From NCBI RefSeq assembly GCF_963667735.1, contig NZ_OY763919.1, positions 1,116,001 to 1,180,000 on the forward strand: a stretch of 64,000 nt of DNA, given 5' to 3'. Positions within the stretch are counted from its first letter, which is position 1. Each line of letters opens with the position of its first letter. The position numbers and the translations under genes were made by a program. This document shows, in pieces, positions 7,082 to 64,000 of the stretch. A model generated the notes under the pieces. That model was not told where the DNA came from. It was given only the letters and a program-made list of their open reading frames with translations, and did no database searches. This stretch comes from an uncultured Methanoregula sp. (lineage in GTDB: Archaea > Halobacteriota > Methanomicrobia > Methanomicrobiales > Methanospirillaceae).

Positions 7082-8320
7082 TTATTCGGGATAGAGGGAG
7101 AACTTGCCTGCAAGCGCTTCCACTTTTCCGTGGACGTCGCGGATGAGTGTCTCGTTCTTGCTGTCCTTGATGACACTTGCAATCCAGTTCCCGATGAGGC
7201 GCATGTCCGCCTCTTTCATGCCCCGGGATGTGACGGCCGGGGTACCGATCCGCAGGCCGCTTGTGACAAACGGGCTCTTGGTCTCGTTCGGGATGGTGTT
7301 CTTGTTGACCGTGATGCCAGCCTTGCCGAGCGCAACCTCTGCTTCGAGACCGGTGATGCCCTGCTCGGTTAAGTCGAGGAGCATGAGATGGTTGTCCGTG
7401 CCGCCCGAGACAAGCCGGAGGCCGTTTGCCATAAGGGTCTCGGCAAGGACTTTGGCGTTTTTGATGATCTGCTTGTTGTATTCCTTGAACGAGGGCTTGA
7501 GCGCCTCCTCGAAACAGACCGCCTTTGCCGCGATCGTGTGCATAAGGGGGCCGCCCTGCATGCCGGGGAAGACCGCCTTGTCGATGGCAACGCCGAGATC
7601 AGCATTGCACATGATGGCGCCGCCGCGGGGTCCGCGTAAGGTCTTGTGAGTCGTGGTGGTGGTATAGTTGACCACGCCGACCGAGTTCGGGTGGAGGCCG
7701 GTTGCGACAAGACCTGCGATGTGGGCGATATCGGCCAGACAGACCGCACCGACATCATCGGCGATCTCCTGGAATGCCTTGAAGTCGATGGTACGGGGGT
7801 ACGCCGAGGCACCGCAGACGATGATCTGGGGCTTCTCCTGCTTTGCCATCTCCGCAACTGCACCGTAGTCGAGCATCTCGGTCCCCGGATCAACGCCGTA
7901 CTGTGCCACCTGGTAGAATTTACCGGTGAAGCTGACCGGGGAACCGTGGGAAAGGTGGCCGCCCTGGTTGAGTTTCATGGAGAGGATCTTGTCTCCCAGC
8001 TTGATGGCTGCAAAATAAACCGCCATGTTCGCCTGGGTGCCCGAGTGAGCCTGGACATTGGCGTGCTCTGCGCCGAAGAGCTGCTTGAGCCGGTCGCGGG
8101 CCAGGTTCTCGGCCATATCGTGGAACTCGCATCCGCCATAGTACCGCTTGCCGGGGTAGCCCTCGGCATATTTGTTGGTCATGATCGATCCCATGGCTTC
8201 GAGCACTGCACGGGAAACAACGTTCTCGGAAGCGATCAGCTCCAGGCCATTGACCTGCCGGAGCCTCTCTTTTTCGATGATATCTGCAATCGCTGGATCG
8301 GTTTTTGACAGATACGACAT
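7082..8320 (-). CDS. glyA: Serine hydroxymethyltransferase
   Basis: GlyA is the PLP enzyme that moves the serine hydroxymethyl carbon to a reduced pterin, giving glycine. The 412-residue protein has [23 protein letters not shown], the PLP-lysine segment [15 protein letters not shown] and [13 protein letters not shown]. The start ATG at 8320 ([11 protein letters not shown]) fits homologues; an open frame upstream to 8575 overlaps the divergent coiled-coil gene. First gene of a four-gene operon with folD, a folP-like gene and cofE. Archaeal homologues can use H4MPT or H4F; pairing with folD makes H4F plausible (inference). Confidence 0.96.
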
Positions 8321-62232: not shown

Positions 62233-62517
62233 AAAGCGCAAACTGGGTTTTCTAGTAGAGTGGATTGTGTACCCTGATGTGGGGGGAGCTATCCCTTGCC
62301 CCAGACGACTTACGGAACGGGCTCTTCGGAGTGGATACGAACACTACTCGATCCCGGGCCCGTCTCCGGAGTAACCGGTCGCACTGGCAGCCGCCGGGAT
62401 ACGCTGAGTTCCGGCATATGTGCAGGACGAAAAAAAGCAGCGGTTGTCCGGCCCTGAGGAATGGTTGAGTCCTACAATGGGAGCGTGGTCCTGAACGACA
62501 AATCCCGGTCATGGGAT
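62233..62517. other. Non-coding stretch after the propeller gene
   Basis: No gene seen. Short frames here do not resemble proteins. It ends where repeat element B begins. Confidence 0.4.
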
Positions 62518-62786
62518 GGGGGGTCTGTGGTGAAAATTTTGAAAAAACCCGGAGACCCCACATACGTTGTGTCCGGAAGAGATATTCGGGAAAATACTCG
62601 TCGTAAAATAAAGAAATAATTTTGAGAAAAATCCCTCTTTCGGTTATCATAAAACCTGAGAATTTTACAAATTTTCACCACAGACCCCCTCCACTATATA
62701 TTGCGAGACTGTTATGAAATGGGTAACATTACGACGAAAAATCAGGTTATATTCCCATCTGGTGCTCCGGGGGGTCTGTGGTGAAA
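62518..62786. repeat. Repeat element B: second copy of the plus/minus/plus element
   Basis: Copies of the same repeat lie at 62518-62536 (plus), 62672-62689 (minus) and 62769-62786 (plus). CGTCGTAAA at 62599-62607 and TTACGACGA at 62729-62737 keep the same relative positions as in element A. Other sequence between them has diverged. Intergenic. Confidence 0.75.
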
Positions 62787-63440
62787 GTTCTTTGCGTTCT
62801 GGCAGGAAGAGAATTAAAAACTGCAGACCGGGCCGGTTTTACCGGACTATGCAAGAGATGCCGAACTGGGAGGACAATCTAGTATAGGTATTATTCGGTC
62901 GGATGCATCGCTTATCCTTCAGCATCGCAATATCTGGGGAATGGCCGGGAATTCTCCGGTCCATGGTGGAAACCAGAGTCGGGAGCTGCCCGTGGGGATG
63001 CAGGTACCTTTGAATCTCTGCTCTAGCCGCACAGGTTTCGTCCGGGCCGGATGCGGCACCATCCCCCAGTTTGGCAACCGGGCCCGGAAAAAATGCGCGT
63101 AACCCTGAGTGGTTAGCTGAATTGTTCAGCAAATGGCAGATCGATATTGCCCCGATACGTTCGATCCGACAGATTCCTGAACCTGCGCGATTGCGGCAGG
63201 GGTCCGGGTCCGGTTTGTCTCCCGGGCACATTTACGTCGTGAAGCTCTTTTTTACCAAACTGCGCTCATGGATCCCCCGGGTCCGGAAACTCCGTCCCGG
63301 ATCCCGATTGCCGCAATCGCGCAGGATCCGGTATCAAGAGCCGTATCCGCACAATCTGGATTGCTAATCGGATTCAGGTACCAAAATCGGATTATTCGGA
63401 ATCCGTATATTTTTGAGAGTATACAATGCGGGAAAAACAA
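62787..63440. other. Non-coding region with inverted repeats
   Basis: No gene seen in about 650 bp. Notable structure: a 17-bp perfect inverted repeat (63182-63198 and 63309-63325), a 6-bp hairpin GCTGAA/TTCAGC at 63116-63130, and AATCGGATT at 63366-63374 and 63385-63393. Could be a remnant element or regulatory region. Confidence 0.45.
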
Positions 63441-63460
63441 GTCATTTCCGGGAGGATCAT

Positions 63461-63546
63461 GTTTAAATGCCCGGGTGTGCTATTATGTGATCCACAAAAT
63501 CTGATGACAAACCGACGAAACCTTCTCTCGGGAAAGGTGTCGGTTT
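63461..63546 (+). ncRNA. Candidate small RNA unit 0 of the tandem array
   Basis: TTTAAATG at 63461-63468 could be a TATA box with transcription starting near 63488. Downstream is a strong hairpin: AAACCGAC (63509-63516) pairs with GTCGGTTT (63539-63546), and ACCTT (63520-63524) with AAGGT (63534-63538). It resembles the units that follow in position and ends with the shared GTGAAACAATGC. Its promoter block is less similar, so it is the weakest member. Boundaries are estimates. Confidence 0.4.
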
Positions 63547-63550
63547 CGAG

Positions 63551-63600
63551 GTGAAACAATGCAGGCAACAAGGTTTAAATACCTCCAAAACCTACATTGT
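63551..63600 (+). promoter_or_regulatory. Promoter block of the small RNA array, unit 1
   Basis: The block GAAACAATGC ... AACAAGGTWTAAATA ... CTACATTGT recurs before units 1, 2 and 3 (63551-63600, 63675-63721 and about 63822-63867). It includes the TATA box and the same spacing to the expected start, followed by a shared AAGCCCGTG. Confidence 0.6.
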
Positions 63601-63668
63601 AAGCCCGTGAACGCGTAAAATTCACGACGATGGGAACCAAACAACCCGTTAAAACCGGGCTTGGTCTC
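63601..63668 (+). ncRNA. Candidate small RNA unit 1 of the tandem array
   Basis: TATA box TTTAAATA at 63574-63581 lies in a conserved block; transcription is expected near 63601. Stem P1: CGTGAA (63606-63611) with TTCACG (63621-63626). Stem P3: ACCAA (63636-63640) with TTGGT (63661-63665), enclosing CCCG (63645-63648) with CGGG (63656-63659). The motif ACGACGA follows P1. No open frame. Transcript boundaries are estimates. Confidence 0.55.
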
Positions 63669-63674
63669 TCATGC

Positions 63675-63721
63675 GAAACAATGCGAGTAACAAGGTATAA
63701 ATATCCTTGAAACCTACATTG
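63675..63721 (+). promoter_or_regulatory. Promoter block of the small RNA array, unit 2
   Basis: Contains GAAACAATGC and CAAGGTATAAATATCCTTG, the latter an imperfect palindrome around the TATA box at 63696-63703. It is nearly identical to the block of unit 3. Confidence 0.6.
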
Positions 63722-63816
63722 TAAGCCCGTGAATGCGTGTAACAACACGACGAAGTTCACAGTTCAGGTTCCTTGATGAAGGACCAAACACGCAGGCTCT
63801 GCCTGCCTTGGTCCCG
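63721..63816 (+). ncRNA. Candidate small RNA unit 2 of the tandem array
   Basis: TATA box TATAAATA at 63696-63703. Stem P1: CGTGT (63736-63740) with ACACG (63745-63749). Stem P2: TCCTT (63770-63774) with AAGGA (63779-63783). Stem P3: GGACCAA (63781-63787) with TTGGTCC (63808-63814), enclosing GCAGGC (63792-63797) with GCCTGC (63801-63806). P2 and P3 share three bases, so they may be alternative pairings. Sequences of the stems differ from the other units while pairing is kept. Boundaries are estimates. Confidence 0.6.
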
Positions 63817-63821
63817 ACGGA

Positions 63822-63867
63822 AAATAATGCAAGTAACAAGGTATAAATATCCTTGAAACATACATTA
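63822..63867 (+). promoter_or_regulatory. Promoter block of the small RNA array, unit 3
   Basis: Contains AATAATGC, CAAGGTATAAATATCCTTG and ACATACATTATGAGCCCGTG; TATA box 63842-63849. Confidence 0.6.
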
Positions 63868-63960
63868 TGAGCCCGTGTTCAATCAAGCAACACGACGAAA
63901 CATAACACAATCTCTTTGATGGAGATCCAACGATGCCCGGCTTGACCGGAGTTGGTTCTG
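63867..63960 (+). ncRNA. Candidate small RNA unit 3 of the tandem array
   Basis: TATA box TATAAATA at 63842-63849. Stem P1: CGTGTT (63874-63879) with AACACG (63889-63894). Stem P2: ATCTC (63910-63914) with GAGAT (63922-63926). Stem P3: CCAAC (63927-63931) with GTTGG (63951-63955), enclosing CCGG (63937-63940) with CCGG (63946-63949). ACGACGA follows P1 as in units 1 and 2. The array may continue beyond the window. Boundaries are estimates. Confidence 0.55.
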
Positions 63961-64000
63961 ACGTTGATACTGGCAAAGCGGAAATTTGTTTAGTAACCGC

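Follow-up and report, generated by a model that had tools for sequence, protein, structure and literature searches.

The stretch at positions 63450–64000 of the window, the 64,000-nucleotide piece of DNA from an uncultured Methanoregula sp. that was analysed, comprised the multiple promoters and the 5′ leader, or 5′ external transcribed spacer, of the sole rRNA operon found in this genome. This identity followed from the downstream sequence, in which a 16S rRNA gene started 46 nt past the window end at position 64046 (L007:2046; RF01959) and was followed by 23S and 5S rRNA genes, and from the third of three repeat units, which was the 16S leader itself and ran into the 16S processing stem. A sequence-only reading had taken the stretch for a tandem array of small RNAs that might continue beyond position 64000; the rRNA operon was seen there. 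An rRNA promoter array with a 5′ external transcribed spacer, in which four TATA promoters (P0 and the three repeats) stand in tandem towards the 16S rRNA gene, is a very likely explanation of the stretch as a whole. The predicted promoters are presumably active and would jointly give a high rRNA output, and transcripts from every one of them should run into 16S-23S-5S. Most promoters would be followed by a folded RNA module consisting of a 5′ hairpin, ACGACGA and a kink-turn-like hairpin, and a promoter that is itself read through would fold into a hairpin.

Promoters and leaders in the window

Only one 16S match was obtained in the whole Methanoregula genome, indicating a single rRNA operon. 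The 16S rRNA gene was followed by the 23S rRNA gene (L007:3745-6666), a tRNA and two 5S rRNA genes. The latter, at L007:6906-7027 and 7168-7289, lay 3′ of 23S and had equal scores. No tRNA was found by Rfam in the 16S-23S spacer; a stretch resembling a tRNA 3′ half was seen by eye at about L007:3610-3636. The 5′ strand of the 16S processing stem began at 63963 and was cut by the window end (63963–64000); its partner was the stretch after 16S at L007:3535-3563.

Three direct repeats started at 63553, 63675 and 63821 (spacings 122 and 146) and had a 64-nt promoter block in common, in which the second and third repeats were 84% and 70% identical to the first. They shared a plan of AACAAGG, TATA box, ACATT, GCCCGTG, short stem, ACGACGA and larger hairpin, with GCCCGTG at 63603, 63725 and 63871. 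The three units of the sequence-only reading, each with its own TATA-like promoter, were confirmed by these positions, and the stems it had named were present by eye. Its possible fourth unit was real but not of the same type. This unit, P0, has a different kind of promoter, with the TATA box TTTAAATG at 63462–63469, and is the most upstream rRNA promoter found. Its leader hairpin at 63500–63551 carried the kink-turn signature, with UGAUGA at 63502–63507, AAACCGAC (63509–63516) opposite GTCGGTTT (63539–63546) and GA at 63548–63549. CGACGA started 51 nt from the TATA start in P0 and 51, 52 and 51 nt from it in the repeats. All features of the array were located on the plus strand.

In unit 1, the promoter (63553–63600, direct repeat D1) had its TATA box at 63574–63581 inside an ACAATG..AGG/CCT..CATTGT hairpin. 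Its leader (63602–63672) comprised the stem P1, CGTGAA/TTCACG at 63606–63611/63621–63626, ACGACGA at 63624–63630 and a hairpin at 63630–63672 lacking the UGA/GA signature. The promoter of unit 2 (63675–63722) enclosed the TATA box at 63696–63703 in an ACAATG/CATTGT hairpin. Nested stems GTGAAT/GTTCAC and CGTGT/ACACG and ACGACGA at 63747–63753 were located in the leader of this unit (63725–63820), followed by a kink-turn-like hairpin with UGAUGA at 63774–63779, GGACCAA/TTGGTCC at 63781–63787/63808–63814 and CGA at 63815–63817. Unit 3, the 16S-proximal one, had a promoter at 63821–63868, with TATA at 63842–63849 inside a TAATG/CATTA hairpin. The 16S leader at 63871–63962 contained P1 (CGTGTT/AACACG, 63874–63879/63889–63894), ACGACGA (63892–63898) and the 16S leader hairpin at 63917–63961, TGATGG..CCAAC..CCGG/CCGG..GTTGG..CTGA. 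At least two same-strand promoter-like units therefore lay directly upstream of 16S, as in tandem rRNA promoters, and the third unit, adjoining the processing stem and conserved beyond the genus, was a conserved 16S leader hairpin.

Single-sequence folds of the leader parts went only modestly beyond shuffles, with z of -2.21 for unit 2, -1.21 for unit 1, -1.01 for P0 and -0.05 for unit 3. Rfam gave nothing at gathering level in the stretch, in agreement with the sequence-only reading, which had recognised no known RNA family; there were only three matches in 62500–64000, with E of 3.5 to 4.6. Several short ORFs overlapped the array, including two minus-strand ones of 61 and 70 aa inside it.

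Other repeats were observed upstream of P0. The stretch 63032–63459 contained an inverted repeat (63172–63198/63309–63335), and its counterparts in G018 (L022; 428 nt) and G029 (L009; 274 nt) were 73% and 69% identical to it, respectively. The motif GGGGGTCTGTGGTGAAAATTT occurred at 62519–62545, 62663–62689 and 62769–62789 in inverted pairs about 100–120 nt apart, and similar inverted pairs were present elsewhere in the same genome near 1021.9, 1046.9, 1130.2, 1337.3, 1652.5 and 1958.4 kb. These pairs resemble a short mobile or paired-motif family.

Occurrence in Methanoregula and the Methanomicrobiales

The model R1 was built from 16 distal units, including unit 2 of the window, and contained no 16S-proximal unit. 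It matched 28 of the 39 genus genomes with one to four matches each, in a single cluster per genome. In the window, it matched unit 1 at E 1.3e-16 and unit 3 at E 5.7e-17, the latter being absent from a default-filter search. 16S lay downstream in 27 of the 30 genus loci with R1; at the other three (L194, L197, L205) the contig edge came before it. The gene started about 200–240 nt after the last TATA box, with a shorter distance in one locus containing an N run. Eleven genus genomes had no R1 match, and the three of these that were searched for 16S (G002, G021, G030) had none. P0 was present in 27 of 28 Methanoregula leaders, of which 26 were aligned and one was L022; it was missing in L023, where the contig ended about 130 nt upstream of the last promoter.

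Three alignments were analysed. The class D pattern was passed by 18 of the 22 distal units with a proper promoter, and 16 of these 18 formed alignment A1. Left out were L019 and one of the three L020 copies, as well as the four class O units, among them unit 1 of the window. Alignment A2 comprised 22 proximal units and A3 comprised 26 P0 units. Three nearly identical promoter-leader units of 132 bp followed each other in tandem at L020:1500-1897 (G016), pointing to a recent tandem duplication and expansion of the array. In the distal unit at L019:1500-1669, a short ATTCACAACAA-like segment directly after P1 was triplicated.

Across the order Methanomicrobiales, R1 matched 49 of 199 genomes. 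16S was found in 18 of 24 genomes searched, 18 of which were from the rest of the order and six from the genus. R1 weakly matched the 16S leader hairpin elsewhere, in L157 and L170 (f3), L158 (f5), L165 (f4) and L171 (f2), with E of 0.0002 to 0.19; the G037 match of the order-wide search coincided with L170. Inspection by eye showed the 16S-proximal hairpin (GATGGAGAWCC ... GGTTCTGACG) in leaders of families f1 to f6, among the leaders listed, with a diverged form in L172 and a counterpart in other leaders of the phylum. A strict kink-turn-like pattern located it in most leaders, not all, and in neither of the two of family f6. Other families of the order likewise had, by eye, several TATA boxes ahead of 16S, separated by hairpins. 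The same-genome rRNA operons of G036 (L160, L174, L180) and of G041 (L175, L181, L185) had near-identical leaders from near TTTGCGCG onward; further upstream the sequence differed by eye, marking a boundary of homogenisation.

Predicted folding of transcribed promoters and leader hairpins

Folded as RNA, the promoter segments of the three repeats of the window had z of -3.60, -3.65 and -3.04, and z < -2 was found at none of five TATA-like sites elsewhere in the window. Methanoregula promoters inside the transcribed leader reached z < -2 in 30 of 40 cases with a narrow segment and in 16 of 40 with a wide one. P0 promoters, which have no known upstream promoter, did so in 0/19 and 2/19 cases, respectively. 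The other Methanomicrobiales families, in which first and downstream promoters were separated by hand and ambiguous ones omitted (e.g. the farthest of L161 and L166), showed z < -2 at 10 of 29 downstream promoters with the narrow segment and 17 of 29 with the wide one, compared to 1/12 and 0/12 at first promoters. Nine TATA-like matches in the processing stem or in AT-rich sequence were dropped.

Exchange of the promoter arms gave the same distinction. Own and swapped arms had values of -16.48 and -13.64 in Methanoregula (p 0.0005) and of -14.45 and -11.26 at the downstream promoters of the other families (p 0.0005, also with one locus per species, n=20). The corresponding p values were 0.73 for P0 and 0.54 for the other families' first promoters. 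The helix enclosing the TATA box was paired in 88.2% of cells in A1, where unit 2 belongs, and in 77.7% in A2, where unit 3 belongs, with three and five pairs changed on both sides, respectively. Promoters inside the transcribed leader are thus predicted to fold into a covarying hairpin and P0 promoters are not.

The inverted repeats flanking the TATA boxes might act as DNA rather than RNA, either as sites of a dimeric rRNA regulator or as cruciforms. The arms do flank the TATA box, and mismatches in the promoter hairpin, which could tell RNA from DNA pairing, showed no clear excess of GU over AC (27 vs 14 cells; expected 35.9 vs 24.7). Against such a role, the arm sequences varied within one array (e.g. 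L158 and L159, by eye), a variation difficult to reconcile with recognition by a single regulator, and low z was rare at P0 and at the other, hand-picked first promoters. A function as DNA is therefore rather unlikely, with a further point in its favour coming from the haloarchaea, where the first detected promoters also carry inverted repeats. In leaders taken as haloarchaeal, a label given from promoter and leader sequence with patterns that may miss more upstream promoters, z < -2 was observed with the narrow segment at 9 of 17 promoters detected first, at 4 of 8 middle ones and at 12 of 15 16S-proximal ones, and with the wide segment at 5, 2 and 14 of them. Own versus swapped arms gave p of 0.23, 0.22 and 0.0003 for the three groups. 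In a smaller haloarchaeal pick, z < -2 was reached by six of seven promoters less than 230 nt from 16S and by 3 of 12 of the rest. Since first detected haloarchaeal promoters also fold, either the contrast between first and downstream promoters is not general, or those detected first are not always the first. In L225-L236 and L248-L266, also taken as haloarchaeal, the 16S-proximal promoter lay about 190–225 nt upstream of 16S within a strong inverted repeat whose arms varied.

The leader RNA was paired in 88.0% of cells in A1, and 13 pairs were changed on both sides, a number reached by 17 of 500 shuffles. Ten of these pairs belonged to the leader part (P1 region and hairpin) and the rest to the promoter helix. 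The covariation score of A1 was 0.216, compared to 0.141 in shuffled alignments (0/500), that of A2 was 0.143 compared to 0.077 (0/500; nine pairs) and that of A3 was 0.142 compared to 0.100 (0/500), with shuffles that ignore relatedness in all three cases; according to the scoring tool, related sequences may beat every shuffle without structure. In A2, P1 and the apical stem of the 16S leader covaried. A3 was paired in 88.1% of cells, with only four pairs changed on both sides (15/500) and pair types within the shuffle range (61/500). Slid registers of the three alignments were 22 to 56% paired, a low value that is partly expected, because the structures were read from the same sequences. RNAalifold, run on A1 with no structure supplied, returned the hairpin and P1 in the register of the sequence-only reading, with 6 of 14 pairs changed on both sides. 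In 13 of the 16 A1 rows, P1 competed with nested stems, GTGAAC/GTTCAC around CGTGA/TCACG, and two pairs of the outer stem were changed on both sides. ACGACGA was conserved in 15 of 16 A1 rows and 21 of 22 A2 rows. Selected RNA structure in the array, proposed in the sequence-only reading from changes on both sides of stems, is supported by these alignments, the scores of A1, A2 and A3 lying above 500 of 500 shuffles, with relatedness ignored.

A kink-turn signature, UGA before the upper helix and GA on the opposite strand, is present in most distal hairpins and in every P0 hairpin, in line with what the sequence of a kink-turn should show. UGA preceded the upper helix in all 18 class D distal units; the invariance of the 3′ GA in this class was partly built in, as the selection pattern ended in C-Y-G-A. 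UGA was found in 27 of 27 P0 hairpins; the pattern recovered GA in 26 of them, and in L022 it was seen by eye. Both were invariant in A3, the rows of which were chosen by patterns containing UGA and ending in GA, with the loss of only L022 (CGA by eye) and L023. The signature was missing, for UGA or GA, in unit 1 of the window, in unit 1 of L009, L012 and L195, in the distal unit of L200 and in the truncated unit of L025. In the standard kink-turn register, the flanking helices of A1 were 76.6% and 92.7% paired, with a score of 0.340 compared to 0.170 in shuffles (0/500) and 26 cells changed on both sides with pairing kept. The flanking helices of P0 were 82.1% and 92.8% paired in this register. 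In 23 Methanoregula leaders, the strict pattern gave 38 matches, compared to 0.08 per shuffled leader; 16 matches were distal, and at least two of these 16 seemed spurious. Outside Methanoregula, its matches were confined to the 16S-proximal hairpin, which escaped it in some leaders; a candidate distal kink-turn was seen there by eye in L216-L219, L222-L224 and L158-L159.

The 16S-proximal hairpin in A2 had GATGG by eye and no GA directly before the upper helix, and did not conform to the standard kink-turn register. It fitted a box C/D-like register (UGAUGG, CUGA) with a 3-nt bulge. A box C/D register was rejected for the distal hairpins, and the standard register preferred, because A1 is variable at the first G and the first A of UGAUGA. 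Kink-turn folding of the leader hairpins and their binding by L7Ae are predictions from sequence.

Selection might also act on the promoters only, with the distal leader hairpins as neutrally decaying leftovers of a tandem duplication of the 16S leader. The recent duplication in G016, the matches of the distal-unit model to the 16S leader hairpin of other families and the several distal units without UGA/GA signature are in line with such decay. It is nevertheless improbable in view of the 10 leader pairs of A1, or 13 including the promoter helix, in which both sides had changed without loss of pairing, the 26 such cells in the kink-turn register and the retention of the P0 hairpin across the genus.

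Probable transcription through the array and comparison with known systems

The archaeal termination factor aCPSF1 acts at U-rich RNA. In PMC7515710, the tracts counted near stop codons were U5 to U7. Runs of four T were absent from 63450–64000, and 25 Methanoregula leaders contained one run of at least five T in 8586 transcribed bases, compared to 55 such runs in 13532 bases immediately preceding P0, with composition unmatched. The scarcity of T-runs fits read-through into the rRNA genes and speaks against separate small RNA genes. A search of the own genome returned only the three units, the remaining matches being 14–17 nt long, and in the genomes searched no units were found apart from rRNA operons, the only places being before 16S or at a contig end. 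The paralogous structured small RNAs with a promoter each that the sequence-only reading had proposed are therefore very improbable: the separate TATA boxes and covarying hairpins would suit them, and short leader fragments could accumulate as by-products of 16S processing, but in the genomes searched the units stay with 16S or a contig end, in the window they lack a T-run terminator of their own, and the last of them is contiguous with the processing stem. Nothing pointed to an antisense role either, which the sequence-only reading had named as a possibility.

Under the promoter-array reading, the likeliest role of the modules, put forward tentatively, would be to hold this long RNA, which is not translated, in a folded state while it is being made, with few U runs left single-stranded, and to load it with a kink-turn binder such as L7Ae, so that RNA polymerase escapes termination and pre-16S assembly begins early. 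Tandem duplication of promoter and leader together probably enlarged the array. In bacteria, RNA polymerase is kept on long untranslated rRNA genes by means of a leader RNA signal. A broader proposal, which we regard as unlikely, sees in archaeal rRNA operons an RNA signal that is coupled to promoters and repeated with them, a structural counterpart of bacterial rrn antitermination directed against U-rich termination, in which the kink-turn module would load L7Ae or another factor and the promoters crossed by the polymerase would be folded away as RNA hairpins.

Tandem archaeal rRNA promoters and a conserved 16S leader hairpin are already known. A passage of PMC4983044, citing Dennis 1985, gives up to five tandem rRNA promoters for Halobacterium cutirubrum, the strongest about 750 nt upstream of 16S, and the same source places rRNA start sites of Haloferax volcanii 185, 293 and 444 nt upstream of 16S. 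For Halobacterium R1, an excerpt of PMC3119063 describes a 133-bp deletion in the rRNA promoter via a 27-bp repeat. Judging from these passages, haloarchaea share with Methanoregula the several promoters upstream of 16S, and a repeat copy was lost by recombination in Halobacterium R1; the promoter and leader sequences differ by eye from those of the leaders taken as haloarchaeal, and the module of P1, ACGACGA and hairpin is found in the Methanoregula units. A C/D-box-like structure was proposed for the ligated 16S leader and trailer (passage of PMC7038931, citing Tang et al. 2002; also Kjems and Garrett 1990), and the Methanoregula 16S-proximal UGAUGG/CUGA hairpin beside the processing stem fits that description, whereas in Methanoregula related hairpins also follow the upstream promoters.

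L7Ae is described as an archaeal kink-turn binder in passages of PMC5539422 that make no mention of rRNA leaders. Most distal units resemble the kink-turns described there in having a 3-nt loop, GA on both strands and two helices with changes on both sides. Unlike them, the Methanoregula candidates lie in rRNA leaders and are predicted from sequence, and the proximal unit is off the standard register. The boxB-boxA antitermination leader of bacterial rrn operons, as outlined in the abstract of PMC10250234, is likewise an RNA signal a short way behind rRNA promoters, and the Methanoregula leader might act on polymerase as well; this is an analogy only, and no sequence relation with the Methanoregula leader was seen. 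Recruitment of Spt4/5 is delayed at archaeal rRNA operons, according to an extract of PMC7289017. For the archaeal RNA chaperone TRAM0076, part of PMC6705878 reports antitermination activity assayed in E. coli and rRNAs not enriched among the bound RNAs. The terms leader, promoter, antitermination and kink-turn were all absent from the text of a review of archaeal ribosome biogenesis (PMC8339473). A literature search, mostly of papers open without subscription, returned no account of promoter-enclosing hairpins, per-promoter kink-turns or an archaeal rRNA antitermination leader, and no paper on Methanoregula rRNA start sites. What looks new is the putative covarying leader module behind each promoter, kink-turn-like in most distal units and in P0, together with the predicted folding of promoters that are transcribed through.

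The assignment guards against annotating 63450–64000 as new small RNA genes. The Methanoregula leader provides a defined set of elements that is testable in a genetically tractable archaeon, and it bears on how archaea hold RNA polymerase on long untranslated rRNA genes.
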